Below are positions 24,452 through 51,890 of a stretch of DNA of 64,000 nt, one piece after another. The notes beneath the pieces are model-generated. The model did not search any database and was not told the origin of the DNA. It was given only the letters and a program-made list of their open reading frames with translations. This DNA comes from Natrialbaceae archaeon AArc-T1-2 (lineage in GTDB: Archaea; Halobacteriota; Halobacteria; Halobacteriales; Natrialbaceae), in assembly GCF_030273315.1 (NCBI RefSeq), contig NZ_CP127174.1, positions 2,914,001-2,978,000 of the forward strand, read 5' to 3'. The position numbers were made by a program, and so were the translations under genes. Within the stretch, counting starts at the first letter, position 1. Each line of letters begins with the position of its first letter.

Positions 24452-25369
24452 ATGTCTGAGTCAACGATGAAGTCTTGGTCCAACGCTACCCTGATTGACC
24501 AAAAGGATCTCTTCGAATACATATTTGAAGGAGGAGCCTGGGATTACGATAACTGTCTGGATATTTCTATTTACTGTATTAAACCGGCTCCCGACTCACT
24601 TGATGAAACAGCATTTGTCCAATTTCTTTCCGAGAAGTATCCCTATTTTGTGATGCCTGAGGATGAGGTGGAAGATCATAAATATCCTTATAGAGAGGCA
24701 CAACGTCGGGCCGATTTCGATGAAGATTCTAGGTATGATGGAAAACTTGGGGAGCTGGTGCTGTTTGTCTTGGTAGACGCTCTTCTTGAACTCCCGTTAG
24801 TCTGCCACAAATTGGGTCAAATGCAGGAGCCGGTCCAGGATCAGAAGGGGGCAGATGCGCTGTTCTACGGCATTCACGAAGGAACTGAGTCATTGGGAGT
24901 CGGAGAAGCTAAAATCTACTCAAATCCGGACCAAGGCATTGACTCCGCTCTCGAAAGTACAGACCGTTTCCATGGTGCAGAGGGTGCGGCAAAGACTCAG
25001 CATGAACTTACCGTGGCCCGGAATAACCTCAGCGACAATCTAGACAAGGATCAAGTTGATAGACTTCTTGACGTCTTCTCCAGTCGACGCACCCAGTACA
25101 AACATCTTCATCCGATCTTTCTAGGTTATGAAGCCAATTGGCTGAAAGAGAAACAGAAGGAGTGTAGCGGCCCAGATGAACTGGAATCAGAAATTATCGA
25201 TGAGATCGAGGACTGTGGGATTCAAGACGATATCAAGGAAACCCTCGAATCTGACTATAGTGACCTTGAGAAATATGAATTGGTATTCCTGATGCTACCT
25301 CTAGAGGATGTCGATAGATTCCGTGAGAAGCTCCAAGAAGAAATCTTTCCTCATGCGGTGAGACACTAA
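24452..25369 (+). CDS. hamA: Hachiman defence protein HamA (DUF1837 nuclease)
   Basis: 305 aa. The DUF1837/HamA core is visible: Glu-101 in GKLGELVL, Asp-135 in QKGADALFYG and the E-x-K pair 152-154 in GVGEAKIYSN, together a PD-(D/E)xK-type active site. In the Hachiman system HamA is the nuclease effector that is held by the HamB helicase and released on sensing aberrant DNA. Low GC and codon use differ from flanking genes, a sign of transfer. The TAA overlaps the hamB ATG by one base (TAATG). Confidence 0.85.
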   Translation: MSESTMKSWSNATLIDQKDLFEYIFEGGAWDYDNCLDISIYCIKPAPDSLDETAFVQFLSEKYPYFVMPEDEVEDHKYPYREAQRRADFDEDSRYDGKLGELVLFVLVDALLELPLVCHKLGQMQEPVQDQKGADALFYGIHEGTESLGVGEAKIYSNPDQGIDSALESTDRFHGAEGAAKTQHELTVARNNLSDNLDKDQVDRLLDVFSSRRTQYKHLHPIFLGYEANWLKEKQKECSGPDELESEIIDEIEDCGIQDDIKETLESDYSDLEKYELVFLMLPLEDVDRFREKLQEEIFPHAVRH

Positions 25370-35118: not shown

Positions 35119-36132
35119 ATGCAAATCGATCGGGAACACGCAGAAGCGATCGCCACCAAAGCGTTTCGTACGAAAGGTCTACAGGTAGACGATGCATCGT
35201 TGGTTGCGGACGTCCTCGTTACGGCGGACGCATCCGGGAAAAGTTCACACGGACTGCTTCGATTACCTCGCTACGTCCGTGGAATCGAACACGGAAACGT
35301 CAATCCTGAGGGGGCCATCGAAATCGTCCGTGAGAGCGGGGCGACAGCGACGATAGATGGTGGTTCGCGCCCAGGACCAGTTGTTGCAGCGACGGCGATG
35401 GGGGAGGCCATGGACCGCGCAGACGAGTTCGGAATTGGCGCCGTCGGCGTCCACAACAGCAATCATCTCGGAATGCTGGGGTACTATACTCAGAAGGCTC
35501 GATCGGAAGGGTACATCGGCGTCGGTATGACGAATACCGAACCGGCGATGCCCCCGTACGGGGGAGCCGAACCCGTCCTGGGAACCAATCCGATTGCGAT
35601 CGGCCTCCCGACGGAGCCACCGTTTAATCTCGACATGAGTACGTCTGCAATCGCGCGTGGAACGGTACTCAAAGAGAAAGAAGCGGACGGCGCGATTCCG
35701 GACGACGTCGCGCTCGATGCAGACGGTGAGCCGACGACCGACCCCGAGGCTGCCCTGGACGGGACGATTCTCCCGTTCGGTGGGCCGAAGGGATCCGGTT
35801 TAGCGATCGCGGTAGAGGTTCTTGCCGGTGGACTCGTTGGGGCAGCTATGGGTCGCGACGTCACCGGAACGTATCACACCGAAGACCCCTGTACGAAAGG
35901 AGACCTGTTCCTCGCGATCGATCCAACAGCGTTCGCTGGAGACGGGTTCGTAGAACAGGCGAGTAGCTTTCTCTCCAATCTGAAAGACGAACCGACGGCT
36001 GCCGGGGTCGACAGTATCCGTCTCCCGGGAGAAGCCGCCCTCGAGCGCGAACGCGACGCAACGACCGTCTCGGTTGGTGACGATCTCTGGGAAACTGTCC
36101 GTTCGATCGCCGACGGTGAGACGGACGAGTAA
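35119..36132 (+). CDS. Ldh/ComC-family NAD(P)-dependent 2-hydroxyacid dehydrogenase
   Basis: 337 aa of the malate/L-sulfolactate/ureidoglycolate dehydrogenase family, which has a unique NAD fold: SSHGLLRLPRYVRGIEHG near the start, VGVHNSNHLGMLGYYTQKA, then GTNPIAIGLPTEP and FGGPKGSGLAIAVEVLAGGL. ComC of this family interconverts (R)-sulfolactate and sulfopyruvate. With SuyAB-type and D-2-hydroxyacid dehydrogenase genes close by, a sulfolactate role is attractive, but malate- or lactate-type substrates cannot be excluded. Plus strand, 186 bp after the GGT gene. Confidence 0.9.
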   Translation: MQIDREHAEAIATKAFRTKGLQVDDASLVADVLVTADASGKSSHGLLRLPRYVRGIEHGNVNPEGAIEIVRESGATATIDGGSRPGPVVAATAMGEAMDRADEFGIGAVGVHNSNHLGMLGYYTQKARSEGYIGVGMTNTEPAMPPYGGAEPVLGTNPIAIGLPTEPPFNLDMSTSAIARGTVLKEKEADGAIPDDVALDADGEPTTDPEAALDGTILPFGGPKGSGLAIAVEVLAGGLVGAAMGRDVTGTYHTEDPCTKGDLFLAIDPTAFAGDGFVEQASSFLSNLKDEPTAAGVDSIRLPGEAALERERDATTVSVGDDLWETVRSIADGETDE

Positions 36133-36521: not shown

Positions 36522-37580
36522 TCACATCAGGCCGGCGTCCTCGTAGGCCTGTTCAGCGGCCGGATGGAGTTCGAACGGCGTATCGTCGAACATCGCTTCG
36601 TCGGCTTCGAACATCTCGAGCGTATCGGTGGTCTGTGGAACCTGCTCGGCTTCCTCTATAACGCCGGAGACGAACATCTCGATTGCCTCGTCTGGCGCGT
36701 CGACGTGGGTTGCGATGTGGCCGCCATCGATCATGGTGTCGAGATCACGCTCGAGTCCGGGCAGTCCGCCCTCTTCTAGCGTGTGCGGATCGAGGCCGTA
36801 ATTGTCCTCGAAGAACTCCTGATCGTCCTCGGTCCAGTCGAGGAAGCGGGGGTCCCGGGTTGCTGTGATGTTTTCCAGCCACCCGACTGATCGACCACTC
36901 ACTGCCAGGATCGCATCGAGGTCCTCATCGAGGAACATATCTGCTGCGTCGTCCCACTCCGTCCGGACGAAACGGCCACCGTAGTCTTCGATCTGTTCCT
37001 GACCGTAGTTCGCCTCCTCGAGGACGGTGTCCCAGACGAAGCCACCGAACGTACCATCGGCTTGGTTCATCACCTCGATCGGGTACTCGTCGTCGGCTGC
37101 TTCCTGTAAGGAATCGTACGGGAAGTCAGGCTGTGTGAGGACGTAGTAGAACTGCTCTGACTGGTCGTTTATCACTGACCGAATGTTCGATGGTGGCGTG
37201 TCCCAGTCTTCCTCGTCGTATGGATCTTGGCCGGTTGCAGCCAGCGTTGCAGCAACGACCGTCGTGTGTGCCATATCGACTTCCTGGTCCTGCAGCCGGT
37301 TGTTGTTCCCGAGCCATCCACCCGGAAGCACGTTGTATCCGAGATCCGGATGCGCTGAGGATGCCGTAGAAAGCATCGACGTCATAATGACATATCCGGT
37401 TCCCCCGGGCGAGCCAGCAGCCGTCTGAAGCATGACGTCGCCTTCGGCCATTTCGGAATCGTCATCACCAGTTCCGGCCTCACCATTGAGATCCCCTTCG
37501 GTACACCCAGCGGCAGCTATCGCGCCTGCACTACCGATCGCTGTAAGCATCTGACGTCGATTGAGCTTGTTATTTTTCAT
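36522..37580 (-). CDS. TAXI-family TRAP transporter solute-binding lipoprotein
   Basis: 352 aa. Signal NRRQMLTAIGSAGAIAAAGC has twin Arg and a lipobox Cys, so it is anchored outside. The mature part follows the TAXI pattern: LQTAAGSPGGTGYVIMTSMLSTA, QDQEVDMAHTTVVAATLAATGQ, LTQPDFPYDSLQEA and a late EMFVSGVIEEAEQVPQ. TAXI proteins deliver organic acids to fused DctQM permeases by sodium-coupled transport. The matching permease starts at 38131 on the other strand. The substrate is inferred only from the neighbourhood (a hydroxy- or sulfo-acid). Confidence 0.92.
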   Translation of the reverse strand: MKNNKLNRRQMLTAIGSAGAIAAAGCTEGDLNGEAGTGDDDSEMAEGDVMLQTAAGSPGGTGYVIMTSMLSTASSAHPDLGYNVLPGGWLGNNNRLQDQEVDMAHTTVVAATLAATGQDPYDEEDWDTPPSNIRSVINDQSEQFYYVLTQPDFPYDSLQEAADDEYPIEVMNQADGTFGGFVWDTVLEEANYGQEQIEDYGGRFVRTEWDDAADMFLDEDLDAILAVSGRSVGWLENITATRDPRFLDWTEDDQEFFEDNYGLDPHTLEEGGLPGLERDLDTMIDGGHIATHVDAPDEAIEMFVSGVIEEAEQVPQTTDTLEMFEADEAMFDDTPFELHPAAEQAYEDAGLM

Positions 37581-37925: not shown

Positions 37926-38094
37926 GGGATGTTCGATTTTTCTCCTAACCAAATATAAAGGTTTCCATTATTTATTGATCGGTAATATAAATTACAATAA
38001 CGCAAACCCGTGAGACACTGTCCAGTAGCTGAAACTATATCTTTATGACATGAATAGAGCGTTGCAAGTACGTACTTCGAAGTTAGACAAAAGG

Positions 38095-38108
38095 TTTAAG
38101 TATAAAAG
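38095..38108 (+). promoter_or_regulatory. TATA box of the TRAP permease gene
   Basis: TTTAAGTATAAAAG lies 23-36 bases before the ATG at 38131. That spacing places the transcription start at or next to the ATG, so a leaderless mRNA is likely. This also decides the start codon: the frame is open upstream to 38050, but that stretch contains this promoter. Confidence 0.7.
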
Positions 38109-38130
38109 GCAGAGTTCTAAGCATAGTGCC

Positions 38131-40056
38131 ATGGATACTATTACCATAGGAAGATACGAGTCTAATCTTCGAACGATCGGCGCATATGGTATTTCAGCAC
38201 TTGCCATTATCACGTCGCTATTTCACCTTTATACGGGCGCGTTTGGTGTGTTTGGGGCGCTCATTCAACGACCCGTCCACGTGTACCTCCTCGCTGCCCT
38301 GACGTTTGCAATCGTTCCGTTCATGGGGGAGGAGAGAATCCGGTACCGAATCGTCGATCTCGTCCTCGTTACCTGTTCTCTCGGTGCGATGGGATACGTC
38401 CTCGTCGAATACTCCCGGCTTCTAAACGCGACCCCGTACGTCGGGATGCCCGAGACGATGGACTGGGTTGTCGGCGTCCTAAGCGTTATACTCGTAATTG
38501 AAGCGACGCGACGAATCGTGGGTCGGTTACTCGCTGCAGTGGCGATTCTCATACTCGTCGCCACGTTCTACGCGGACGTACTTCCGGCACCGCTTACGGC
38601 ACCCCGACTTCCTGCGTCGAACTGGATCGATGGGCTGTTCGTTACAACACAAGGGTTGTGGAGCGTCCCTGTTCGTGTCAGTGCATCGTTCATTTTCCTC
38701 TTCGTGGTCCTGGCAGCGTTCCTCGAGGCGACTGGTGCAGGCCGATTCTTGCTCGATCTGGCAAACGCCTTGGTCGGACACCTCGTCGGTGGTGCAGCGA
38801 AGGTGTCCGTCGTTGCGAGTTCGATCTTCGGGAGTCTCTCCGGAAGTGCGGCTGCTAACGTATACGGAACCGGGATATTCACGATCCCGACGATGAAAAA
38901 GTTCGGGTTCTCCTCTCGAATGGCTGGTGCGACGGAGGTGTCGGCTTCGAACGGCGGTCAGCTAATGCCGCCGATCATGGGAGCAGGTGCCTTCATTATG
39001 GCACAATTCCTCGGGACGGAGTACATCGTCATTGCACTCGCCGCGATCATTCCGGCGGCGTTGTACTACTTATCAGTGTACTTCTCTATCCACGCACAGG
39101 CGATCAAGCTGGATATCGATCCGGTACCAAAAGAGGAGCAAAAGAACGCACTCAACGTGCTGAAAGAAAAACCCGGTCAGGCGTCCACGCTCGCTCTTAC
39201 GGTCGGTGTATTGTTCTTCATGCTCATGCAGGGATACACGATCTACCGTTCGATCTTCTTCTCGATCGCGGTCATGATGATCGTGAGTTCCCTGCAACCG
39301 GATTCGAGACTCGGCGTCAAGGAACTCGTCGTCGCATTCGATAAAGGAGCCCGCAACGCCACGCAGATCGCGATGGCCTGTGCCGCCGCTGCGATTGTCC
39401 TCGGGGCGTTGAACATTTCTGGACTCGGCGTCGTCTTCGGTCAGATCGTGGTCGCGCTCTCTCAAGGAATCATTCCGCTGCTGTTGATACTCGTTGCAGC
39501 CTTCTCCATCATTCTCGGGTTCGGGATGCCGACGACGGCGGCATACATTTTGGCTGCCTCCCTTCTAGCGCCCGGACTTGCGGAGGTGGGACTCGCAGGA
39601 CTGCCGGGGCATTTCTTCATCTTCACGTTCGCCGTGTATTCGACGCTCACACCGCCCGTCGCTCTCGCAGCGTTCGCCGCCGGTCAGATCGCGGATGCAG
39701 ACCCCATCAGAATCGCTCTCATCGCGATGAAGATCGTTCTCCCCACCTTTATCATTCCAGCCCGGTACGTCCTCTACCCGGCAATTCTACTGGAGATGGC
39801 GTGGGCGTACGTGCTTCTTGACGTCTTCATCCTCTCGGTCGCCGTCATCGCGATCCAGGCGGGTATCTGGGGATGGCCGGTCAAAAACAAGATGGCACGC
39901 GGGTTCGCGACGTTCGGTGCACTGGTTTTGATCGTTCCACCACCGCTCCTTCCGATCGGCGTCATCGAACTGGCCGCTCTCGGCCTCGTGCTCGTGGCTT
40001 TCGCTGGCGTCTTACACGTCACGGCTGAACGTCGTGCACAGCAGCCAACGGCGTAA
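38131..40056 (+). CDS. TRAP transporter permease, fused DctQM (TAXI type)
   Basis: 641 aa from the ATG at 38131. A first block of four to five helices (DctQ-like, about residues 15-140) is followed by the large DctM-like part with GSAAANVYGTGIFTIPTMKKFGFSSRMAGATEVSASNGGQLMPPIMGAGAF and GMPTTAAYILAASLLAPGL, both hallmarks of TRAP fused permeases. It drives uptake of an organic anion with sodium. Its TAXI partner is divergent at 37580. A 77-aa membrane protein follows. Confidence 0.93.
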   Translation: MDTITIGRYESNLRTIGAYGISALAIITSLFHLYTGAFGVFGALIQRPVHVYLLAALTFAIVPFMGEERIRYRIVDLVLVTCSLGAMGYVLVEYSRLLNATPYVGMPETMDWVVGVLSVILVIEATRRIVGRLLAAVAILILVATFYADVLPAPLTAPRLPASNWIDGLFVTTQGLWSVPVRVSASFIFLFVVLAAFLEATGAGRFLLDLANALVGHLVGGAAKVSVVASSIFGSLSGSAAANVYGTGIFTIPTMKKFGFSSRMAGATEVSASNGGQLMPPIMGAGAFIMAQFLGTEYIVIALAAIIPAALYYLSVYFSIHAQAIKLDIDPVPKEEQKNALNVLKEKPGQASTLALTVGVLFFMLMQGYTIYRSIFFSIAVMMIVSSLQPDSRLGVKELVVAFDKGARNATQIAMACAAAAIVLGALNISGLGVVFGQIVVALSQGIIPLLLILVAAFSIILGFGMPTTAAYILAASLLAPGLAEVGLAGLPGHFFIFTFAVYSTLTPPVALAAFAAGQIADADPIRIALIAMKIVLPTFIIPARYVLYPAILLEMAWAYVLLDVFILSVAVIAIQAGIWGWPVKNKMARGFATFGALVLIVPPPLLPIGVIELAALGLVLVAFAGVLHVTAERRAQQPTA

Positions 40057-41054: not shown

Positions 41055-42305
41055 ATGGACGACGATCACAACGCAGAACGGACGCTGCCGACCGACGTCG
41101 ACAAACGAGTCGAAGAGGTACCGGATCCGAACGAGCGGTACACCTGTCTCGGGCCGGAGTCGAGACGGGTGTTCGCCGACTGGCTCACCCCGATCGAGAA
41201 CCACTACGTTCTCCATCGTTCGAACACGCCCGATCTCGACGCGTCCTCGTGGACGGTGTCACTGACGGGAGCACTCGATGGAGTGACGCTCTCGGTCGAG
41301 GAGCTCAAGACGGAGTATCCGACGCTCACCGTCGCTCACACGATGGAGTGTGCGGGGAACTGCCGGGCGTACTTCGATCCGCCCGTTTCCAGCGTCGAGT
41401 GGGGACTCGAGGGCGTCAGCACCGCGGTGTGGACGGGTGCGTCCCTGCAAGCGGTGTTGACTGACCACGGGCTCGAGAACGAGGACACGTGGGTGACGGC
41501 GATCGGCGGTGACGATCCGGGAACGGACGGGGACGCCTTCGCTCGCTCGATTCCGACGTCGAAGGCTCTGAAGGACTGCATCCTCGCCTACGAGATGAAC
41601 GGCACGGAGCTTCCCAGAGAGCACGGTGCTCCCGTCAGACTGCTCGTTCCTGGCTGGTACGGCGTCAACAGCGTGAAGTGGCTCGAGGAACTCCGCGTCA
41701 TGGACACGATGGTCTACGGTCCGGAGTGGGACCAGCGACGCGGTGAACCGTACTACACGCGATGGCAACAGGAGGGGTATCGGATCGTCCCGGCCGGGGA
41801 AGAGCCGGAGCCGAACCCGTCCGTGCCGGTCTTCGATACCTGGGACCAGCTTCGCCACGACGAGATCGACCATCCATATACCTTCGACGCGAACGTCAAA
41901 TCGATCATCGCACACCCGACGGGCGAAGAACCGGTCACGCAACGCGAGGACGGGACCGTCGAGGTGCTTGGCGTCGCGTGGGCCGGGGACGACGACGTGA
42001 CGACGGTCGAGATCTCGACTGACGGAGGGGAGACGTGGGAGACGGGACGATTCCTCCACCCACCCGTCCCGAACGCGTGGCGCACGTTCCGGTATCTCTG
42101 GGAGCCGGAGCCGGGGGCGTACACGCTCACATCGCGGGCGACCGACGACCGTGGACGGACACAGCCTGCCACGATTGGGTCGCCGGAGACGGGGCTCGAG
42201 ACGTTCGAGGACGACGTGTATCCATGGAACGAGGGCGGGTACGCGGCAAACGCGTACGAGCCACTCACCGTCGACGTAACCGTCCGCTCGGCCTCGTCGA
42301 CGTAA
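41055..42305 (+). CDS. Sulfite-oxidase-family molybdopterin enzyme
   Basis: 416 aa. The oxidoreductase molybdopterin domain shows AHTMECAGNCRAYF with the molybdenum-ligand Cys-99, GASLQAVLTDHGL, YEMNGTELPREHGAPVRLLVPGWYGVNSVKWLEEL, followed by a Mo-co dimerisation domain (VEVLGVAWAGDDDVTTVEISTDGGETW). No Tat signal is present, so it acts in the cytoplasm. The family oxidises sulfite to sulfate; a sulfite-releasing lyase gene pair lies 2 kb away, which fits. The electron acceptor is not encoded beside it. Confidence 0.88.
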   Translation: MDDDHNAERTLPTDVDKRVEEVPDPNERYTCLGPESRRVFADWLTPIENHYVLHRSNTPDLDASSWTVSLTGALDGVTLSVEELKTEYPTLTVAHTMECAGNCRAYFDPPVSSVEWGLEGVSTAVWTGASLQAVLTDHGLENEDTWVTAIGGDDPGTDGDAFARSIPTSKALKDCILAYEMNGTELPREHGAPVRLLVPGWYGVNSVKWLEELRVMDTMVYGPEWDQRRGEPYYTRWQQEGYRIVPAGEEPEPNPSVPVFDTWDQLRHDEIDHPYTFDANVKSIIAHPTGEEPVTQREDGTVEVLGVAWAGDDDVTTVEISTDGGETWETGRFLHPPVPNAWRTFRYLWEPEPGAYTLTSRATDDRGRTQPATIGSPETGLETFEDDVYPWNEGGYAANAYEPLTVDVTVRSASST

Positions 42306-42317
42306 CCCGCGAACCGC

Positions 42318-43289
42318 TCACCCCCCGAGTGCGTCCTCGTTGACCAGGTTTGGTGGGCGCTGCCCCTCCAATGCCCGCCGGACACACCTCGCTGCGGTTC
42401 GCCGCCGTTCCGCGTTGGCTTCTTCGGAGTACCAGCCGACGTGTGGCGTCGAGAGCACGGCGTCGTGATCCCGAAGCGGGTCGTCCACCGCTGGCGGTTC
42501 CTCGGGGAAGACGTCCAGCCCGGCACCGCTTATCTCGCCGGCATCGAGTGCATCCACGAGCGCTGCCCGATCGACTATCGGACCGCGAGACGCGTTGATT
42601 AGATATGCGCTGTCGCGCATTCGGTCGAACGCTTCCTCGTCGAACATTCCCCGTGTCGAATCTGTCAGTGGCGAGTGCACCGAGACGACATCGGCGTGCT
42701 CGAGAAGCTCTTCGAATTCGAGCAACTCGACGTCGTACTCGACGACGGCGTCGTCGTCGACGTACGGATCGGATGCGACGATGTCGGCACCTAAAGCGGC
42801 GGCTCGCTCTCCGAACGCCCGTCCGATCGCTCCGAACCCGACGACGCCGACAGTCTGTGTCGAGAATCGACGAACAGGCGCCCCAACGTCTCTGTCCCAC
42901 TCGCCGGCGGCGACGGAACGGTCGTACTGAGGGAGCGACCGGGTTAGCGAGATAGCCATGCCGAGAGCGTGTGTGGCGACCTCTTCCAGGCAGTACTCGG
43001 GGACGTTCGTGACGTAGATCCCCCGCTCGCCAGCCGCGTCGACGTTCACATTGTCGACACCGATTCCGTATCGGGCGATGATTCTGCAGGCGTCGAGGTC
43101 GGTAATCGTCGATCGATCCAGCTCCGCACGGAGGGTGAGTATCCCGTCGGTGCCGGCGGGAAGATCGCGAGTGACGTCGCCGACGTCCTCGGCCAACGGC
43201 TGCACCTCGGCGATGCCGTCGAGAACGTCACGTTCGATCGACAGATCGTCGAAATCGTGATCCGTCACGACCACGAGATAGTCTCCCAT
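42318..43289 (-). CDS. D-isomer-specific 2-hydroxyacid dehydrogenase
   Basis: 323 aa from the ATG at 43289; the open frame upstream has no coding character. NAD motif VGVVGFGAIGRAFGERAAALGADIVASDP, catalytic Arg in LINASRGPIVDRAALVDAL, Glu in GAGLDVFPEEPP and His in STPHVGWYS are all present. In bacterial sulfolactate breakdown, SlcC of this family oxidises (S)-sulfolactate to sulfopyruvate, working with ComC. That role is plausible here given ComC- and SuyAB-type neighbours, but glyoxylate/hydroxypyruvate-type substrates remain possible. Confidence 0.92.
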   Translation of the reverse strand: MGDYLVVVTDHDFDDLSIERDVLDGIAEVQPLAEDVGDVTRDLPAGTDGILTLRAELDRSTITDLDACRIIARYGIGVDNVNVDAAGERGIYVTNVPEYCLEEVATHALGMAISLTRSLPQYDRSVAAGEWDRDVGAPVRRFSTQTVGVVGFGAIGRAFGERAAALGADIVASDPYVDDDAVVEYDVELLEFEELLEHADVVSVHSPLTDSTRGMFDEEAFDRMRDSAYLINASRGPIVDRAALVDALDAGEISGAGLDVFPEEPPAVDDPLRDHDAVLSTPHVGWYSEEANAERRRTAARCVRRALEGQRPPNLVNEDALGG

Positions 43290-43464: not shown

Positions 43465-43794
43465 TCAGACCAGCAATCGGACGGCAAAGAGCAGGAAGAA
43501 CGCAGCGCCGAACAGCCAGACGACGAGGCTCGTTCGCCGGGGTGAAAGCCGCGTTTCGATCACGGTCGATCGAACTCCGAGGAAGGCATGGAGCAACACC
43601 AGCCCGAGTGTGAGATCGAGTATCGGCCGATAGATTCCCCACTCGACGAGTACAACGAACCCGTACTCCGGGTACAGCTGGACACCGACGTGAGCCGCAA
43701 GAAGCGCCACGAGGGCGAGTGCGCTCACCCGGTGCAGTACCCAGGGGAGGTATCCGATCGTCGCTGGCCCTCGGGTCGGCGTATCGGTGCTCAT
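43465..43794 (-). CDS. sdhD: Succinate dehydrogenase-like membrane anchor, SdhD type
   Basis: 109 aa from the ATG at 43794, overlapping the sdhC stop by four bases. Three helices; LPWVLHRVSALALVALLAAHVGVQL carries a His-Arg pair near the quinone site and a possible heme ligand, and LLHAFLGVRSTVIE is the second SDH-anchor motif. It would anchor the SdhAB-like catalytic part, whose genes are 4.7 kb away on the opposite strand. It is the last gene of the suyA-suyB-sdhC-sdhD strand. Confidence 0.85.
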   Translation of the reverse strand: MSTDTPTRGPATIGYLPWVLHRVSALALVALLAAHVGVQLYPEYGFVVLVEWGIYRPILDLTLGLVLLHAFLGVRSTVIETRLSPRRTSLVVWLFGAAFFLLFAVRLLV

Positions 43795-44150
43795 AGGCTC
43801 ACCCCCATGAGGATGACGAGTGCCGCCGATGCGCCGACTGTCAGCCAGAACGACAGCCGGTTCCCCGATGCGGTGAGCCCACCCAGTTCGACGATTACGA
43901 GGCGGATACCGTTGAACGAGTGAAAGACGAGGACCGCCAGGAGCGCGACGATTATCCACGTCGATGTTGGGTTGTAGACGCTCGATGGCGACGCCTGCAG
44001 GATCGGAACGAGTAGGTGAATGCCGATCCAAGCAAGTAATAGCCACCCCGTCAGCCGATGGAGCGTAAACGCTACGTGTCCAACCGCGAAGTTTCGCCAA
44101 CTGCGAGCGGCCAGTAGATCCCGCCCGTAGATGAGTTGCTCGTCATCCAT
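43791..44150 (-). CDS. sdhC: Succinate dehydrogenase-like cytochrome b subunit, SdhC type
   Basis: 119 aa from the ATG at 44150 (an upstream in-frame ATG adds 14 unlikely residues). Three helices with FTLHRLTGWLLLAWIGIHLLV and VFHSFNGIRLVIVELGG, the SdhC heme-b and quinone motifs. It pairs with SdhD, whose start overlaps its stop. It lies 104 bases downstream of suyB on the same strand, so anchor and lyase genes may share a transcript, an unusual arrangement for an SDH. Confidence 0.88.
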   Translation of the reverse strand: MDDEQLIYGRDLLAARSWRNFAVGHVAFTLHRLTGWLLLAWIGIHLLVPILQASPSSVYNPTSTWIIVALLAVLVFHSFNGIRLVIVELGGLTASGNRLSFWLTVGASAALVILMGVSL

Positions 44151-44254
44151 GTGTATGCTGTGAGTCGTCGAGTGGTGTGATTTGTATGACACCAGTGACG
44201 CCTGTATCGCCCAGGTGTCGTGATGGTCGTATACTGTGCGCCGATCGAAACCGT

Positions 44255-45418
44255 TCAGGTCGAGGGACCGATTCTGTGGATCGCGAACTGGCTTTCGCCG
44301 AGGACTTCCGAGAGCGTGTACTTCCCGTTTGCGACCTCCATAATCTCCTCCCAGAGCTGGTCGGTCGCCCAGTCGATGGGCTTGTCGCCGACTAACGCCT
44401 CGCTGACGTCGACGTCGGTCTCTTCGGGCACCCGTTCGGCGCTTCCGGGGTTCCCCGTAATCTTGATCGTCGGCATGATCGCGTTCGAGAGGGTGTGTCC
44501 CTGGCCGGTCGAGATGACCATGAAGTGAGCGCCGCCGGCACCGATACCGGTCACGCTCTCTGCGCCGTGTCCGGGCGTGTCCATGATGTACATTCCGGAT
44601 TCGTCGGGGATCTCCTCGCCGTAGTCGACGAGGTCCTGAATCGGGCCGTCACCGGACTTGACCAGCGCACCGAGAGACTTCTCCTCGATCGTCGTCAGCC
44701 CACCGTCCATGTTGTCGGGCGTCGGCTGGGCACCCCGGACGTCGTAGCCGGTCGCCTGGAGGCGTTTGTCCCAGTTGTCGACGTACTCGAGGATCTTTTC
44801 GGCGACGTCGTCGTTGACGGCACGCTCGGCCAGCCCTTCTTCACCACCGAAGAACTCCGGCGTCTCAGCGAAGACACCCCGTCCACCCTGCTCGATCAGC
44901 CGCCAGACGGCCCCTGCGGTCGCGTAGTGCTGACAGAGTCCGCTGGTCGTATCGGAGGTGGCGCAGTTGATTCCGAATGTGAGATTCGAGATGTCGTGTG
45001 GCTCTCGCTGCTGTGCGGAGGCGTCCTGGACCATCTCCTGGGCGGCCTCGACGGTCGCTTGCAGTCCGTTCATCACGCCTTTTTCACCGTGGATGTTGAC
45101 GCTTTCTGCGGGACGCCCCGTCTCCGCGACGTCTGCAGCCAGCTCGTCCCCGTCGACGCTCTCGCCAGCGTGTGCGACGACGACTGCACCGTAGCTGTTC
45201 GGATGCGTGGCATACCCCAGCAACGTCCGGTACGTCTGGAACACGTCCGGCTTGGTCTGACAGCGCCCCAGGGGGTGGGTGATCGGGACCGTTCCCTCGA
45301 CGATGTCGGCAGCGCGCTTTACCGTGTCGTTTGCGTACGGTGCCGTCGAGATGATCGGGACGTGGTTTCGGATGCCGATACTACCGTCGGGTCGCTCGTA
45401 TCCTAAGAATTCAGTCAT
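44255..45418 (-). CDS. suyB: UxaA/SuyB-family lyase, large subunit
   Basis: 387 aa. The UxaA/altronate-dehydratase fold starts EFLGYERPDGSIGIRNHVPIISTAPYAND and has THPLGRCQTKP, FGINCATSDTTSGLCQHYATAGAVWRLIEQGGRGVFAETPEFFGGE and MDTPGHGAESVTGIGAGGAHFMVISTGQGH. Family members eliminate water from sugar acids or, as SuyB with SuyA, sulfite from (R)-sulfolactate to give pyruvate. Separate large and small subunits plus nearby sulfite oxidase and exporter genes favour the Suy reading. Altronate- or galactarate-like dehydration is the main alternative. Confidence 0.8.
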   Translation of the reverse strand: MTEFLGYERPDGSIGIRNHVPIISTAPYANDTVKRAADIVEGTVPITHPLGRCQTKPDVFQTYRTLLGYATHPNSYGAVVVAHAGESVDGDELAADVAETGRPAESVNIHGEKGVMNGLQATVEAAQEMVQDASAQQREPHDISNLTFGINCATSDTTSGLCQHYATAGAVWRLIEQGGRGVFAETPEFFGGEEGLAERAVNDDVAEKILEYVDNWDKRLQATGYDVRGAQPTPDNMDGGLTTIEEKSLGALVKSGDGPIQDLVDYGEEIPDESGMYIMDTPGHGAESVTGIGAGGAHFMVISTGQGHTLSNAIMPTIKITGNPGSAERVPEETDVDVSEALVGDKPIDWATDQLWEEIMEVANGKYTLSEVLGESQFAIHRIGPST

Positions 45419-45436: not shown

Positions 45437-45760
45437 TCACTCGCTAATCCCTTCGATCGCTTCACTGTCGGACTGGTCGCCACGGCCGTAGTTGCTATCG
45501 ACGTTGTGTGTATGTACCCAGTCGCCAGCCTCGATATCTTGGCTGGCGTAGCCGATGCTCAATCCGTACTTGCATACAGTGTCACCTTCGTCGATGTCGG
45601 TGAGAGCCACTTTGTGTCCAAACGGAATGTCCTCGTTAACAGTGACCGTTCGAACTTCGTCGCCGACGGGGACGTCGACGACCTCACCCTCCTCAACCTC
45701 TCTGATGAAGGTCCCGACGTTGTCCTCCGGTGTGACGACTTCGATGTATTGCTCTGCCAT
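45437..45760 (-). CDS. suyA: UxaA/SuyA-family lyase, small SAF-domain subunit
   Basis: 107 aa from the ATG at 45760; the longer upstream frame lacks coding character and contains the promoter. The SAF domain reads VNEDIPFGHKVALTDIDEGDTVCKYGLSIGYASQDIEAGDWVHTHNVDSNYG, as in SuyA and the UxaA N-terminal domain; the H-x-H pair near the end is the expected metal or substrate contact. It stops 18 bases before suyB starts. Partner and caveats as for suyB. Confidence 0.85.
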   Translation of the reverse strand: MAEQYIEVVTPEDNVGTFIREVEEGEVVDVPVGDEVRTVTVNEDIPFGHKVALTDIDEGDTVCKYGLSIGYASQDIEAGDWVHTHNVDSNYGRGDQSDSEAIEGISE

Positions 45761-45823: not shown

Positions 45824-46008
45824 GAACACGATTAGCTCCGGAGACGATGAACCGGACGTCGTCGAGATCCGTCGTGATTCGGTAAGGACCGATGCATCGC
45901 GGCGTCCTGACTTCGGAAGCGTGAAACGGCGAACGGCCTGGATAGTCGACGTCATTCACCGGAGACAAAACATATACTTCGTAGCCGATACGAGTGTACC
46001 GCCGTGAC

Positions 46009-46809
46009 ATGGTAACAGCTACTCTGGCCGCGTCGAGCGTCTACACCGTCGCTGGGATCGAACTCACCGCGTTCGAGGCCGTCCTCGCGCTTGGAATTCT
46101 TCTCCTCGGTGGTTTCGTCAAAGGCACCGTTGGGTTCGCAGTCGGTCTCATCACGGTGGCTGGACTCGTCCAGGTATTCCCTCCCCAGATCGCCTTAGTA
46201 GCGCTCTCGATCCCGTTTTTCGTATCGAACGTCGTCGTACTGGCCGGAGACGGTGTTCCTGTGGGGTTTCTCCGGGAGCAGATCCCGTTCGTGGTCGCTC
46301 TCGTCGTCGGTCTGTTCGCAGGTGTCTGGTTGCTCACCGTCCTTTCGCCGGAACTTCTGTACCTGTTCATCGCCGGGTACGTGATGCTCTTTCTCGGGTT
46401 CCAGCACGTCGAAGAGCGGATACAGGAACACGCCTCCAGCGACAGCGCGGGAGCGTTCTCGGGATCGCTTAGCGGTCTCCTCGGCGGCGCGGTGAGCGCA
46501 CCGGGCCCACCGCTTGTCATTCATACGTACCTGAACACGATCACGGATCGTCGGGCGGTGTTCGTAACCGGTGTCTCTGCACTGTTTCTCATCGCCCACG
46601 CCGTTCGAGTCCTCTTTCTCGCCCGCGCGGGTCTGTTACACGTCAGAGAGATCCTGCTTGGCGCTGTCTTTACCGTCCCGATCTTCGTCGGGGTGACGCT
46701 CGGAATCGCCTTCCGACCGCACATCGACGACGAGACGTTCACGCTGTTGATCAAGGTACTCCTGGCCGTGATCGGTATTCGGCTACTTCTGAACGGGTTC
46801 GGCTGGTAG
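46009..46809 (+). CDS. TauE/SafE-family membrane exporter
   Basis: 266 aa from the ATG at 46009 with about eight helices. The TauE/SafE repeats are LGGFVKGTVGFAVGLITVAGL in the N-half and GSLSGLLGGAVSAPGPPLVIHTYL in the C-half. Members export sulfite or sulfoacetate in sulfonate-degrading bacteria, among other anions. It lies beside the suyAB pair, divergent from it, which supports sulfite export. It converges on the lyase gene with ten bases between stops. Confidence 0.88.
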   Translation: MVTATLAASSVYTVAGIELTAFEAVLALGILLLGGFVKGTVGFAVGLITVAGLVQVFPPQIALVALSIPFFVSNVVVLAGDGVPVGFLREQIPFVVALVVGLFAGVWLLTVLSPELLYLFIAGYVMLFLGFQHVEERIQEHASSDSAGAFSGSLSGLLGGAVSAPGPPLVIHTYLNTITDRRAVFVTGVSALFLIAHAVRVLFLARAGLLHVREILLGAVFTVPIFVGVTLGIAFRPHIDDETFTLLIKVLLAVIGIRLLLNGFGW

Positions 46810-46819
46810 GGCCCGCAGG

Positions 46820-48322
46820 CTACGAGCGGATCGTATCGACGCAGTCGGCGAGTTCGTCACTGGCGTTCTCGAGCGCTTCGCGCCGTCCGTTGATGGTGAC
46901 AGCGTCCTCGTCGAGGTTTGCCCGTCGGTCCTGGATCATCCGCTGGACTTCTCTCGGAGCTGGACCGCCAGGAACGTCGTGAGCCTCGACGAACTCCCGA
47001 GGATCGAGCGCGGACTGAACGAACTCGTCGTCGATGTCGAGTTCGTCTCCGGTTATCTCGACGGCCGATTCGTTGACGAGGTCTGCGTCGACCTCGGTTG
47101 CGTCGAGGTTCCGATCCAGTGCACGCCCGACTAGATCGCCCACGATTCGGTGGGCCGTGCGGTACGTCAGGTCTGTCCGGCGGTCGATCTTGGCCGCGAG
47201 TTCGCTGCAAGATGCGAACCCTTCGGCCGCGAGTCGCTCCATCTCCTCGGCGTTGAACGTCGCGCTTCCGACGGTCCCATCGAGAAGCGTAAGCGACCGT
47301 TCAACCTCCTCGAACGCGTCGAACAGGGGGTGGACCGCGTTCTCTTCGACGTCTTTGATGTCCTGGAAGTTGGTGTTGTGAAGCGTCTCGAAGACGGCAG
47401 ACACGTGCCCTACCGCGTACGCTGCCCGCCCACGGACGTACTCGAACGGGTACGGGTTTTTCTTCTGTGGCATGAGACTGCTCGAGCCGGAGTATTCGTC
47501 GCCGATCTCGACGAAGTCGAACTCCCAGGTGTGCCACGTATAGAGGTCCTGGCAGAACCGGCTCAACGTCACCATCATGTTCGCCATCGCCGTGGCCGGC
47601 TCCATGTGATGGTCGCCACCGGAGACACAGTCTATCGTGTTCTCTTTGTAGCCGTCGAACCCCAGCAGATCTGCCACGAGCTGTCGATCAAGATCGTACG
47701 ACGCTCCGGAGAGGGCACCACAGCCGAGGGTGCACTCGTTTACCGTCTCGTACGCACCGAGCAGCCGCCGGGTGTCGCGTTCGAGCGAGTCGACGATTCC
47801 CAGCAGGTAGTGAGCGACCGTCGACACCTGCGCGTGCTGGTAGTGGGTCCACTGTGGCATGACCGTCTCGATCTCCCGTTCGGCGAGATCGAGGAGCGTG
47901 CTCCGTAGCGAAACGACGCACTCGAGCACGTCGAGTAACGACTCGCGTTCGACCATTCTGGCGAGCGGTTCGGGACGGGTTCGCCCGATGTTGATGTTGC
48001 CGGCCACGTCTTCGCCGACCCGTTCGTTGAGCTGGTACTCCATGTGCGAGTAGAAGTACTCGAGGCTCGGGTTGTACTCCCCGAGTACCTCCGGCCCTTC
48101 GTCCTCGAGATCCGCGAGTGCGTTCAGCAGTTGTGCGCCGTCGTCCTCGTCGACGATGCCCGATTCGACGAGCATCACCGTCCAGGCCTTGTTCGTCTCG
48201 ATGAGCGGGTAGAAGTAGTGGTCGCGCTTGAACTCGTACGTCGGTTGCTGGATCGTTTCCGTGTACACTTCGCCCGGTGCGGTCTCTAGTCGTTCCCGTG
48301 AGATTTTCTCGTCTGACGACAT
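46820..48322 (-). CDS. Argininosuccinate lyase-like protein (fumarase/aspartase superfamily)
   Basis: 500 aa from the ATG at 48322. Superfamily motifs: NINIGRTRPEPLARMVER, TVMPQWTHYQHAQVST (catalytic His), ALSGASYDLDRQLVADLLGF, and the signature loop GSSSLMPQKKNPYPFEYVRGRA with the catalytic Ser. The enzymes split C-N (or other) bonds, usually releasing fumarate. No argininosuccinate synthetase is nearby, and length and context argue against arginine synthesis. The neighbouring SDH-like complex could handle a fumarate product. Some superfamily members act on sulfonated acids in coenzyme M synthesis, so a sulfo-substrate is possible. Confidence 0.85.
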   Translation of the reverse strand: MSSDEKISRERLETAPGEVYTETIQQPTYEFKRDHYFYPLIETNKAWTVMLVESGIVDEDDGAQLLNALADLEDEGPEVLGEYNPSLEYFYSHMEYQLNERVGEDVAGNINIGRTRPEPLARMVERESLLDVLECVVSLRSTLLDLAEREIETVMPQWTHYQHAQVSTVAHYLLGIVDSLERDTRRLLGAYETVNECTLGCGALSGASYDLDRQLVADLLGFDGYKENTIDCVSGGDHHMEPATAMANMMVTLSRFCQDLYTWHTWEFDFVEIGDEYSGSSSLMPQKKNPYPFEYVRGRAAYAVGHVSAVFETLHNTNFQDIKDVEENAVHPLFDAFEEVERSLTLLDGTVGSATFNAEEMERLAAEGFASCSELAAKIDRRTDLTYRTAHRIVGDLVGRALDRNLDATEVDADLVNESAVEITGDELDIDDEFVQSALDPREFVEAHDVPGGPAPREVQRMIQDRRANLDEDAVTINGRREALENASDELADCVDTIRS

Positions 48323-48458: not shown

Positions 48459-50216
48459 ATGGTTCAGTACGCTGAGCGAGCAACCGATGTAGCGATCATC
48501 GGTGCCGGAGGTGCAGGGCTGTTCGCGGCGATGTATGCCGACGATAACACCCCCGATGATCTCGACGTGACCGTCGTCGTCAAGAAACTCGCCGGGAAAA
48601 GCGGCTGCACCCGCATGGTGCAGGGAGGGTACAACGCAGTACTCCATCCAGACGACTCGATCGAGGACCACTACGTAGACACCATCGAGGGCGGAAAGTG
48701 GATCAACGACCAGGAGCTAGCGTGGACGCTGGTCGAGAACGCGCCGAAGGTCATTCGGAAACTGGAAAACGATCTCGGGGTCTTCTTCGACCGAGACGAG
48801 GACGGTAACATCCATCAAAAGCCGTTCGCGGGACAGTCGTTCGACCGGACGGTCCACAAGGGCGATCTGACCGGGATCGAGATCATGACGAAGATCCGTG
48901 ACGAGCTGTTGACCCGCGACGTGACGTTCCTCGAGGAGACCCGGGCCGTCGACCTCCTGACTCGAGACGGTGAGGTCGTCGGCGTCGTCGTGTTGGACAT
49001 GCGCTCCGGCGAGTTCGAGGTGATTACCGCCAAGGCCGTCGTCCTCGCTACCGGTGCCGGCGCGACGATGTACCGTATCTCGACGCCAGCTCTCGAGAAG
49101 TCTGCGGACGGACAGGCGATGGCGTACCGTCGAGACGCTCCGCTGCAGGACATGGAGATGATGCAGTTTCACCCGACTGGGTTGCTGGCGGGAGATACGA
49201 AACTCACGGGTGGCGTCATCGAAGAGGGAATCCGTGGGGAAGGAGCACATCTCTACAACGCCGAAGACGAGCGGTTCATGGAAAAGTACGCGCCCGAGGA
49301 GATGGAACGGGCGACGCGAGATATCGTTTCCCGGGCGAGCTACCAGGAGATCATCGACGGTCGAGGAACGGAACGCGGCGGTGTGTTACTCGATGCGACC
49401 CACCTCGGAACCGAGTTCGTCGAGGAGACGTTCCCCGGAATGACGGAGCGAACGCGAAACGTCGGACAGGATCTCTCGACCCAGCGAGTCGAGGTATCGC
49501 CGACGTCTCACTATCACATGGGAGGCGTCACCATCGACTCCGACTGTGGGACGGAACTGCCGGGACTGTTCGTCGCTGGGGAAGACGCTGGCGGTGCCCA
49601 CGGGGCGAACAGACTGGGCGGAAACGGCGTCGTCGACTCGACGGTACTCGGCAAGCAAGCCGGGGAGGCCGTCGCGGACTACGTCGAGGACCGACCGCGC
49701 CCGTCGTACGACTCAGAACAAGTAGAACGCGTGATCGAACGGGTCACAGCGCCTCTCGACCGGGAGGACGGAGCCGACGTATACGACCTCCGTGACGAAC
49801 TCGAGGACGTGATGTGGGAGCACGTCGGCGTCGTCCGAACCGGGGAGAAACTCGACACGGGAATCGAACGTATTTGCGGGATTCGCGACGCACTCGACGA
49901 CGTCGCGGTGTCGGGGACCCGCAGGTACAACCTGGAGTGGAACGAGTACATGGACCTCGAGAACCTCTCGCTGATCGCGGAGACGGTCGCACGAAGTGCC
50001 CGCTACCGGACGGAGAGCCGGGGGGCACACTACCGCGACGACTACCCCGAGCGCGACGACGACGAGTGGATCGCCAACGTCTACGTCAGGCGCACCGACG
50101 ACGGAATGGAGCTTTGGAAGGAAAACGCCGCGTTCAGTCGGACGCACCCGAACGACGTCGAGGACGCCCTCGTGACCGTGTCGGACGCTGACGACAGACG
50201 GGCAAAGAGTGACTGA
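48459..50216 (+). CDS. sdhA: Succinate dehydrogenase/fumarate reductase-like flavoprotein, Cys in place of FAD-linking His
   Basis: 585 aa. FAD motif VAIIGAGGAGLFAAM; substrate residues kept: MQFHPTGLL, RDIVSRAS (base Arg), SHYHMGGV and GANRLGGNGVVDSTVLGKQAGE. So it should act on a C4-dicarboxylate-like acid. In the segment that normally reads SHTVxAQGG, it has SGCTRMVQGG: Cys-50 replaces the His that holds FAD covalently, so flavin is either non-covalent or thioether-linked. That raises the possibility of fumarate reduction or a substituted succinate. Twenty bases before sdhB; anchors are on the other strand at 43.5-44.2 kb. Confidence 0.88.
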   Translation: MVQYAERATDVAIIGAGGAGLFAAMYADDNTPDDLDVTVVVKKLAGKSGCTRMVQGGYNAVLHPDDSIEDHYVDTIEGGKWINDQELAWTLVENAPKVIRKLENDLGVFFDRDEDGNIHQKPFAGQSFDRTVHKGDLTGIEIMTKIRDELLTRDVTFLEETRAVDLLTRDGEVVGVVVLDMRSGEFEVITAKAVVLATGAGATMYRISTPALEKSADGQAMAYRRDAPLQDMEMMQFHPTGLLAGDTKLTGGVIEEGIRGEGAHLYNAEDERFMEKYAPEEMERATRDIVSRASYQEIIDGRGTERGGVLLDATHLGTEFVEETFPGMTERTRNVGQDLSTQRVEVSPTSHYHMGGVTIDSDCGTELPGLFVAGEDAGGAHGANRLGGNGVVDSTVLGKQAGEAVADYVEDRPRPSYDSEQVERVIERVTAPLDREDGADVYDLRDELEDVMWEHVGVVRTGEKLDTGIERICGIRDALDDVAVSGTRRYNLEWNEYMDLENLSLIAETVARSARYRTESRGAHYRDDYPERDDDEWIANVYVRRTDDGMELWKENAAFSRTHPNDVEDALVTVSDADDRRAKSD

Positions 50217-50235
50217 TCCAAACCGAAATCTACCA

Positions 50236-50967
50236 ATGACCGAACAAGAATTCACCGTTCATCGCTACGATCCGGAGACCGACGATGAGGCACAGTTCGA
50301 ATCCTACGATGTCCCGATCACCGAATCGACGTCGGTACTCGACGGGCTGTTCTACATCCAGGAAACGCTCAACGAGAACCTCTCGATGCGGTTTTCCTGT
50401 CGGCAGGGTGTCTGTGGGAGCTGCTGTATGGAGATAAATGGAAAGGCGCGGCTCGCCTGTCAGACGCCAGTCACCGATCTCGCTGACCAGGACGTCACCG
50501 TCCGACCCATGTACAACTTACCAGTCATCAAGGATCTCGTCGTCGACATGGATCCGTTTTTCGAGAGCTTCGAGGAGATCGATCCATCCTTCGAAGCCGA
50601 CGGGAGAGACGAGGACAGCGAAACCGCAGTGATACCCCCCGATTCTCGAGAACGAGAAGTCATCGATCCTCGAACGGACTGTGTCGGGTGTGGTGCGTGT
50701 TACTCGAGTTGTAGCGTTGCGGGCGAGACGTATCTCGGCCCAGCCGCCATAAACAAGGCCGTAACGCTTCTGAAGGACTCGCGGGAGACGAAAACTGACG
50801 AACGTCTCGCTCGGCTCTCCGAGACCGATGGCGTCTGGGGCTGTCACGTCCAGGGCGAGTGTAGTGACGTGTGTCCCAAGGATATCCCCGTCTCGGAGGG
50901 TATCCAACTGCTCAAACGGGACGCCGTCAAACGTGGAATCAAAGCACGTCTCTTTTCCTCGGACTGA
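50236..50967 (+). CDS. sdhB: Succinate dehydrogenase/fumarate reductase-like iron-sulfur subunit
   Basis: 243 aa from the ATG at 50236 (a GTG at 50209 would overlap sdhA). The [2Fe-2S] site is SCRQGVCGSCCMEINGKARLAC, the [4Fe-4S] site CVGCGACYSSC and the [3Fe-4S] site CHVQGECSDVCPKDIP, so the full electron wire is present. An acidic insertion rich in Asp/Glu (about residues 125-150) links the two domains. It transfers electrons between the flavoprotein and the SdhCD-like anchor. Confidence 0.92.
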   Translation: MTEQEFTVHRYDPETDDEAQFESYDVPITESTSVLDGLFYIQETLNENLSMRFSCRQGVCGSCCMEINGKARLACQTPVTDLADQDVTVRPMYNLPVIKDLVVDMDPFFESFEEIDPSFEADGRDEDSETAVIPPDSREREVIDPRTDCVGCGACYSSCSVAGETYLGPAAINKAVTLLKDSRETKTDERLARLSETDGVWGCHVQGECSDVCPKDIPVSEGIQLLKRDAVKRGIKARLFSSD

Positions 50968-51096: not shown

Positions 51097-51110
51097 TGTT
51101 ATTGGCGCCT

Positions 51111-51890
51111 ATGCCAGAAAACAACGCGCGGGGGCGTGCAGTGAAGTCCGACGAGCGGTTGTTCGACATAGTCGAATTTATCAGGGAGCAGGATGGTGCA
51201 GGCGTCACCGAGATCGCGTCGGAGGTCGGACTCGCAAAGAGTACCGTCCACGGTCACCTGACCTCGCTTCGCCGACGGGGATACGTCGTCAAAACCGACG
51301 ACGGATACCGCCTCGGGCTGGAGTTTCTGAATCACGGTAAATACGTTCAGACCTCGTACAGCCTGTACACGATCGGTCAACAGAAGGTCAAACAGCTGGC
51401 GGCAAAGACCGACGAACGGGCGTGGTGTGTCGTCGAGGAAAACGGACTGGGATATTACCTTACGGGAGCCGAGGGGGACCATCCGGTACATCCGCCAGCC
51501 CGTATCGGGCAACGCGTTCACTTACACCCGCTGGCGTCCGGGAAGGCGATTCTCGCGCACTTACCGGAGTCACGCGTCGACGAAATCGTCGATCAGCACG
51601 GCCTGCCGGAGATCACATCGAACACGATCACCGACGAGGACGAGCTGTTCGCGGAGTTAGAGCGGACAAGAGAGCGTGGCTACGCCGTCAACAACATGGA
51701 GTCCCTATCCGGATTGTACGCGATCGGCGCGCCGGTCGTCGACGAGACCGGCGTCGTCAGGGGTGCACTATCGATTTCCGGACCCAAAAACCGACTGAAA
51801 GCCGAGAACAAGCAACACCGGTTCGTCGATCTCTTGCTCGGCGCGACGAACGAACTCGAGATCAACATTCGCAACCACCGTTCGATGTAG
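51111..51890 (+). CDS. IclR-family transcriptional regulator
   Basis: 259 aa from the ATG at 51111 rather than the upstream TTG. The winged helix reads EQDGAGVTEIASEVGLAKSTVHGHLTSLRRRGYVV; the effector domain has VHLHPLASGKAILAHLP and ESLSGLYAIGAPVVDETGVVRGALSISGPKNRL. It closes the putative sulfonate region, 143 bp after sdhB on the same strand, and is the best candidate for its regulator. It is close in length and motifs to the IclR at 10300, which suggests a shared origin. Confidence 0.93.
   Translation: MPENNARGRAVKSDERLFDIVEFIREQDGAGVTEIASEVGLAKSTVHGHLTSLRRRGYVVKTDDGYRLGLEFLNHGKYVQTSYSLYTIGQQKVKQLAAKTDERAWCVVEENGLGYYLTGAEGDHPVHPPARIGQRVHLHPLASGKAILAHLPESRVDEIVDQHGLPEITSNTITDEDELFAELERTRERGYAVNNMESLSGLYAIGAPVVDETGVVRGALSISGPKNRLKAENKQHRFVDLLLGATNELEINIRNHRSM

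Follow-up and report, generated by a model that had tools for sequence, protein, structure and literature searches.

The 64,000-nucleotide stretch of haloarchaeal DNA analysed here (the window) carries a gene cluster that most likely encodes a rare, horizontally spread variant of respiratory complex II, starting the breakdown of 3-sulfopropanoate. The membrane-bound SdhABCD-like complex would probably oxidise this sulfonate (-O3S-CH2-CH2-COO-) and so feed the desulfonation of sulfolactate. Gene content, conservation, phylogeny and active-site substitutions are the observations on which we build our proposals for the substrate, the direction, each enzymatic step and the flavin status.

The flavoprotein gene (48459-50216, + strand) opens with an ATG and encodes an SdhA-like protein of 585 aa with the Pfam domains FAD_binding_2 and Succ_DH_flav_C of SDH/FRD flavoproteins, predicted to be the catalytic subunit of a 3-sulfopropanoate dehydrogenase. 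It carries Cys50 (codon 48606-48608, + strand, within the segment SGCTRMVQGG) in place of the FAD-linking His, and Glu255 in place of the substrate Thr. The initial annotation had pointed to the Cys and doubted that this is the housekeeping succinate dehydrogenase, and both points are borne out. A PF00890 search of the host genome (haloarchaeal, 3.36 Mb in three contigs, 99% complete) returned three full-length family members including the window protein: a His-type SdhA (G000:C1:647940-649088, RSHTGAAEGG), with which AGKSGCTRMVQGGYNA aligns so that Cys50 faces the His of SHT, and a third member (C1:2436566) with Ser at this position, taken as L-aspartate oxidase. The window flavoprotein is therefore the second SDH-like flavoprotein of this genome and not its housekeeping enzyme, since the His-type SdhA is encoded separately. 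Nor is the Cys common to all haloarchaeal SdhA. In an alignment of 74 relatives it is found in all 22 orthologues and in 15/15 methanogen TfrA sequences, every one of which passes the TfrA model. His stands here in the 26 other haloarchaeal SdhA-like proteins (around 40% identity) and in the housekeeping SdhA. The window protein thus lacks the His of the SHT/AHT motif that carries covalent 8-alpha-histidyl FAD. In TfrA the FAD is non-covalent. Inheritance from a common ancestor with TfrA is the simplest account of Cys50, which probably characterises this part of the family rather than representing a covalent-flavin novelty, and the FAD is likely to be non-covalent, as had been suggested from the sequence at the outset.

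An AlphaFold2 model of the flavoprotein (mean pLDDT 80, pTM 0.85) has the SDH fold, and among PDB structures it matches SDH and FRD best, with a TM-score of about 0.85 to 1kf6 and 7d6v. The model supports the fold only, with pLDDT below 50 at residues 45-49, 247-251 and 383-389; we draw no argument from geometry for Cys50 or Glu255 because confidence is poor around Cys50 and the substrate loop.

Glu255 (codon 49221-49223, + strand) is the hallmark proper to the orthologue family. The substrate loop xTEGxRGEG reads VIEEGIRGEG in the window protein, and the exchanged residue corresponds to T254 of E. coli SdhA (alignment to 1nek); the Thr or Ser that precedes the conserved loop Glu in SdhA is missing. 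All 22 orthologues have Glu here and all 52 other sequences of the alignment have Thr or Ser. The early statement that every dicarboxylate-binding residue is kept therefore stands for H238, R287, H351 and R385, the catalytic Arg and substrate-binding His and Arg, which are invariant in all 74 sequences, and fails for the substrate-loop position. Glu255 is likely a specificity change, and the invariance of both Cys50 and Glu255 in 22 orthologues from four phyla is more than chance would give. The residue brings another negative charge close to a substrate that is itself an anion, a point that counts against our preferred reading. The exchange offers a Thr-to-Glu experiment made by nature in an active site known in great detail.

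The orthologues come from haloarchaea, Bacillota, Actinomycetota and Pseudomonadota and form one clade (support 100/100), all with Cys50 and Glu255. Its sister is the TfrA clade (support 100/100), which combines Cys with Thr; the join has support 99/94 and is a point where the program warns of long branches meeting. The family is rare, patchy and frequently plasmid-borne. A copy of at least 70% identity occurs in 4 of 391 haloarchaeal genomes including the host, all other matches lying near 40%, and the family is carried by 4 of 299 genomes sampled from the order to which Halalkalibacter belongs. In 72,556 plasmid records, haloarchaeal copies turned up on two (Natribaculum luteum and Haloarcula sp. 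GH36) and bacterial ones, with 47-57% identity, on 15, in Rhodococcus jostii RHA1, Methylobacterium, Sulfitobacter, Paracoccus, Pseudomonas sp. MPC6, Cupriavidus and two arsenite-oxidising rhizobia; proteobacterial coverage is by plasmids. Such a distribution is as expected for an accessory catabolic trait.

In the window the sdhA stop is overlapped by a gene for an SdhB-like iron-sulfur subunit (50209-50967, + strand; 252 aa) with a 2Fe-2S N-terminal and a 4Fe-4S dicluster domain, followed by an IclR-family regulator (51102-51890, +), which adjoins SdhAB in the haloarchaeal clusters. Two membrane anchors lie on the other strand, an SdhC-like cytochrome b556 (43791-44192, −) with an HRLTG motif and an SdhD-like protein (43465-43794, −; Sdh_cyt). 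Around them are a TauE/SafE-family protein predicted to export sulfite or a sulfonate (45994-46809, +), a TAXI-family TRAP solute receptor (36522-37580, −) and a fused TRAP permease (38050-40056, +) as candidate importer parts, and a sulfite-oxidase-family molybdoprotein (41055-42305, +), a candidate for sulfite oxidation whose best match is SorT (202 bits, below the cut-off). We compared six haloarchaeal clusters: that of the window, L041, Natribaculum (L042/L063), L043, Haloarcula amylovorans (L046) and Haloarcula GH36 (L064), of which L043, L046 and L064 are closely related. SdhA, SdhB, IclR, a lyase of the argininosuccinate lyase (ASL) superfamily, a UxaA-family pair and TauE are kept in all six, SdhC and SdhD in all five tested, and TAXI-TRAP genes in five, none being seen in L041. 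A gamma-glutamyltransferase gene accompanies four clusters (window 33316-34932; L043:14378-15994; L046:13301-14914; L064:19543-21159), and nicotinamide nucleotide transhydrogenase genes lie near two (L064:4246-7229; L041:16621-19625). Elsewhere in the window, two adjoining ORFs (24452-27408), a helicase-like one (25369-27408) and a small partner (24452-25369), form what we take to be a pair resembling Hachiman-type anti-phage defence.

The lyase (46820-48322, − strand; about 500 aa, with the signature GSSSLMPQKKNP) is predicted to be a sulfoacrylate hydratase. All six haloarchaeal clusters have it and have no fumarase; all 16 bacterial clusters have a two-gene class-I fumarase beside the flavoprotein and sdhB, and no lyase. 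The lyase would thus take the slot of the bacterial fumarase pair, and we read it as the hydratase of the dehydrogenase product because two unrelated families, both able to hydrate a fumarate-like double bond, fill the same position beside the same dehydrogenase. Public records annotate the haloarchaeal gene as argH, and it passes the ArgH model TIGR00838 (328 bits, cut-off 279.5). It is ruled out as the ArgH of arginine biosynthesis, as the genome has a better-scoring one (477 bits) and the lyase travels with the SDH-like cluster. Its closest solved relative, 6g3d/6rx8, is labelled argininosuccinate lyase and is otherwise known as EDDS lyase. The XcbC model of coenzyme M biosynthesis is matched over its full length with 258 bits, below the cut-off of 575. 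XcbC forms sulfoacrylate in an elimination reaction, of which the hydration we propose would be the mirror image.

A second element kept in all six haloarchaeal clusters is a UxaA-family pair, an SAF-domain small subunit (45437-45760, − strand; SuyA-like) and a GD_AH large subunit (44255-45418, −), predicted to be a SuyB-like sulfolactate sulfo-lyase. The pair has the two-gene make-up of SuyAB, an Fe(II)-dependent enzyme that cleaves (R)-sulfolactate, and SlcC-like, ComC-like and sulfite exporter genes stand near it in the window and several relatives, although SlcC and ComC were not seen in every stretch examined. NCBIfam and Pfam hold no SuyAB-specific model, and the predicted SuyAB-like identity rests on this context and on the ComC-like neighbour, which is itself below its cut-off. 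That neighbour, an Ldh-family dehydrogenase (35119-36132, +), has L-sulfolactate dehydrogenase as its best NCBIfam match (NF040650, 349.8 bits against a cut-off of 500; next family 224); in the Haloarcula-type clusters an Ldh dehydrogenase stands directly behind the UxaA gene. The SlcC-like protein belongs to the D-2-hydroxyacid dehydrogenase family (42318-43289, −) and shares 62-63% identity with its equivalent in haloarchaeal sulfosugar-type clusters with SuyAB. The window SuyB-like protein shares 83-89% identity with its counterparts from the other haloarchaeal clusters, and haloarchaeal SuyB-like proteins are 85-87% identical to those of the sulfosugar-type clusters. A module of SlcC, ComC, SuyAB and TauE that turns sulfolactate into pyruvate and exported sulfite has been published (PMC12421959), and SuyAB chemistry is also described in PMC12890257.

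The sulfosugar-type islands, seen on plasmids of Halomarina and Haloarcula pelagica (L065, L066) and in Natribaculum luteum (L063, where about 15 kb separate a GH31/GH3 stretch and the SDH-like gene), are a possible archaeal sulfosugar degradation cluster. They combine GH31, Gfo6, a sugar-acid dehydratase, an aldolase, an aldehyde dehydrogenase, a SuyAB-like pair, Ldh, a C-terminal-binding-protein-like dehydrogenase and YeiH, an enzyme order that by analogy resembles an Entner-Doudoroff-type sulfosugar route ending in sulfolactate. We do not call them proven sulfoquinovose clusters and keep the term “sulfosugar-type”, since their GH31 enzyme passes the alpha-xylosidase cut-off and lacks QQRWY, a motif ascribed to sulfoquinovosidases. 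According to a 2026 review, no archaeal sulfoquinovose pathway has been characterised (PMC12890257).

In those bacterial clusters for which annotation existed, sdhC and sdhD were present. Sulfite exporters (YeiH/TauE), SoxC or sulfite dehydrogenase, and importers of the TTT, TRAP or dicarboxylate type are common. A SuyAB-like pair together with dehydrogenases resembling SlcC and ComC occurs in 6 of the 16 (all four Bacillota, RHA1 and Methylobacterium radiotolerans), and none was seen in the other 10 within the flank examined, mostly 12 kb. Three clusters, each without SuyAB, have a homologue of methylmalonate/malonate-semialdehyde dehydrogenase: in Pseudomonas MPC6 (L061:13617-16776) its gene begins on the final base of the fumarase gene, and it is also near the clusters of two Cupriavidus (L095, L099), which suggests a second exit from sulfoacrylate. 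The fumarase tree separates clusters with SuyAB from the rest; this is a single change on the tree, with flanks mostly of 12 kb, and carries no weight alone. Another gene recurring near bacterial clusters (L058:13609-15234, L059:7278-8879, L095:8798-10408) encodes a thiamine-diphosphate enzyme that scores under every cut-off; its relatives are acetolactate synthase and 2-hydroxyacyl-CoA lyase, and it is possibly a sulfopyruvate decarboxylase or carboligase. On the plasmid of Sulfitobacter THAF37 a 3-sulfinopropanoyl-CoA desulfinase (above the NCBIfam cut-off; L059:24364-25536) lies about 11 kb from the SDH-like gene.

Read together, these genes suggest the following route. 3-Sulfopropanoate would enter, probably through the TAXI-TRAP transporter, and the SdhABCD-like complex would remove two hydrogens to give 3-sulfoacrylate, the electrons passing from a non-covalent FAD through the iron-sulfur clusters of SdhB and the SdhCD anchor to the quinone pool. 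The ASL-superfamily lyase, or class-I fumarase in bacteria, would add water to form 3-sulfolactate, SlcC/ComC-like dehydrogenases may adjust its stereochemistry via sulfopyruvate, and the SuyAB-like lyase would split it into pyruvate and sulfite, which would be exported by TauE or oxidised. In the alternative exit, sulfoacrylate may be hydrated at the sulfonate carbon to an unstable adduct that falls apart into sulfite and malonate semialdehyde, the latter to be taken up by the semialdehyde dehydrogenase of the three clusters that have it. We favour 3-sulfopropanoate because dehydrogenase, hydratase and SuyAB in series would turn the sulfonate analogue of succinate into the known substrate of SuyAB. 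We also lean, though by little, towards the wider view of a distinct branch of complex II for sulfonate analogues of succinate (“sulfo-complex II”), in which Glu255 would be the specificity residue and which, with a fumarase or an ASL-type hydratase, would mineralise 3-sulfopropanoate as a sulfonate segment of the TCA cycle and has spread on archaeal and bacterial plasmids and genomes. In the initial annotation a modified substrate had been considered, and its hint at a sulfonate was, by the neighbouring genes, probably in the right direction.

The same gene set would also serve sulfosuccinate, one of the substrates proposed at that stage: dehydrogenation to sulfofumarate and hydration to sulfomalate would be followed by cleavage into oxaloacetate and sulfite by the SuyAB-like lyase, and H351 and R385, which bind carboxylate, are both kept. 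We nevertheless consider it unlikely. The haloarchaeal SuyB-like proteins are close (85-87% identity) to those of sulfosugar-type clusters, in which sulfolactate would be the expected intermediate; the malonate-semialdehyde dehydrogenase of the bacterial operons fits a C3 product, as 3-sulfopropanoate would give, and would not be needed for a C4 one; and the literature searched yielded neither gene nor pathway for sulfosuccinate. Methylsuccinate, another early suggestion, likewise suits the neighbouring genes less well than 3-sulfopropanoate. It belongs with N-substituted aspartate and similar compounds to a reading in which the substrate is a modified dicarboxylate with no sulfonate and the lyase is a C-N lyase like EDDS lyase, as its closest solved relative would suggest; the fumarase pair that stands in its place in 16/16 bacterial clusters points to hydration instead, and the SlcC/ComC/SuyAB-like module and sulfite genes would be left with no role, so that we give this reading little credence. 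Improbable as well, if not to quite that degree, is the reverse direction, in which sulfolactate would be dehydrated to sulfoacrylate, reduced with menaquinol and excreted as 3-sulfopropanoate. A non-covalent FAD and a TfrA sister clade are typical of fumarate reductases, and haloarchaea use menaquinone. E. coli FrdA, once deprived of covalent FAD, loses succinate oxidation and keeps fumarate reduction, which leaves the reductase some weight; an oxidising role for a non-covalent flavin would need a more favourable redox couple, and this too counts against our preferred reading. The clusters, however, are catabolic in outlook, with importers, a sulfo-lyase-type protein that would compete for sulfolactate, and either exporters or dehydrogenases for sulfite. 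Homologues are also present in the aerobes Sulfitobacter, Paracoccus and Methylobacterium, which use ubiquinone. It is because of these neighbours and the occurrence in aerobic alphaproteobacteria that we favour oxidation, and the role in fumarate reduction first envisaged finds no support.

Two simpler readings of the flavoprotein itself are far less probable. A thioether between Cys50 and FAD, which would be a new type of flavinylation in complex II and had been raised in the initial annotation, could be argued from the invariance of the Cys and its alignment with the FAD-linking His; the presence of the same Cys in all 15 TfrA, with their non-covalent FAD, makes it very unlikely, and we set it aside. 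A redundant but ordinary succinate dehydrogenase, to which the shared fold and catalytic residues and the SDH and FRD structural matches would lead, is just as hard to credit beside a separate His-type SdhA, a strict Glu255, sulfonate-type genes constantly alongside in several phyla and a presence in just 4/391 haloarchaeal genomes.

Should oxidation of 3-sulfopropanoate be confirmed, no respiratory complex II would, to our knowledge, have been assigned to a sulfonate before this one, and the 3-sulfopropanoate pathway would have its first set of genes, archaea included. It would provide the genes for one aerobic route of 3-sulfopropanoate degradation, tie a respiratory complex directly to sulfonate turnover, extend organosulfonate desulfonation to haloarchaea and correct the annotations “FAD-binding protein”, “succinate dehydrogenase”, “argininosuccinate lyase”, “fumarate hydratase” and “UxaA family hydrolase”. 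Homotaurine is one source of 3-sulfopropanoate, and gut bacteria also produce it out of sulfoquinovose by way of DHPS. It can serve as a feed for H2S-producing Bilophila, along a route described as unclear in a 2026 review (PMC12890257). In the literature searched, with a thesis on the route and subscription papers outside that scope, we found no gene assignment for the 3-sulfopropanoate route, and an earlier assignment by others is possible.

The nearest precedent for the chemistry is Roseovarius nubinhibens, which degrades homotaurine via 3-sulfopropanoate, sulfoacrylate and sulfolactate according to that thesis, cited by PMC11489063; the intermediates are those predicted here, and the genes are not given as the work is cited there. 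The downstream part resembles the sulfolactate module of PMC12421959 in its UxaA-family two-gene lyase, D-hydroxyacid and Ldh-type dehydrogenases, TauE and transporter, and differs in that an SDH-like complex and a hydratase precede it as a new predicted feeder route, and in its occurrence in archaea too. XcbC and XcbD of bacterial coenzyme M biosynthesis share the ASL superfamily with the haloarchaeal lyase, whose full-length XcbC match stays below the cut-off; no coenzyme M gene context was seen around it, and ArgH and the 6g3d lyase are closer. For the flavoprotein the best NCBIfam match is TfrA of methanogen thiol:fumarate reductase (NF004900, 575.7 bits), short of the cut-off of 718 that the methanogen sequences pass. 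The two, as sister clades, share the Cys for FAD-His and the H/R/H/R catalytic set, but TfrA has Thr where the window protein has Glu255, and the neighbourhood of the latter is sulfonate-type. TfrB, in turn, is longer (model of 488 positions) and has no SdhC/D anchors, unlike the 252-aa SdhB with its SdhC and SdhD genes. In subunit make-up, fold and catalytic Arg and His the complex is that of complex II (SdhABCD), from which it departs by the missing FAD-linking His, the Thr-to-Glu exchange in the substrate loop and its position as a second copy in a catabolic cluster.
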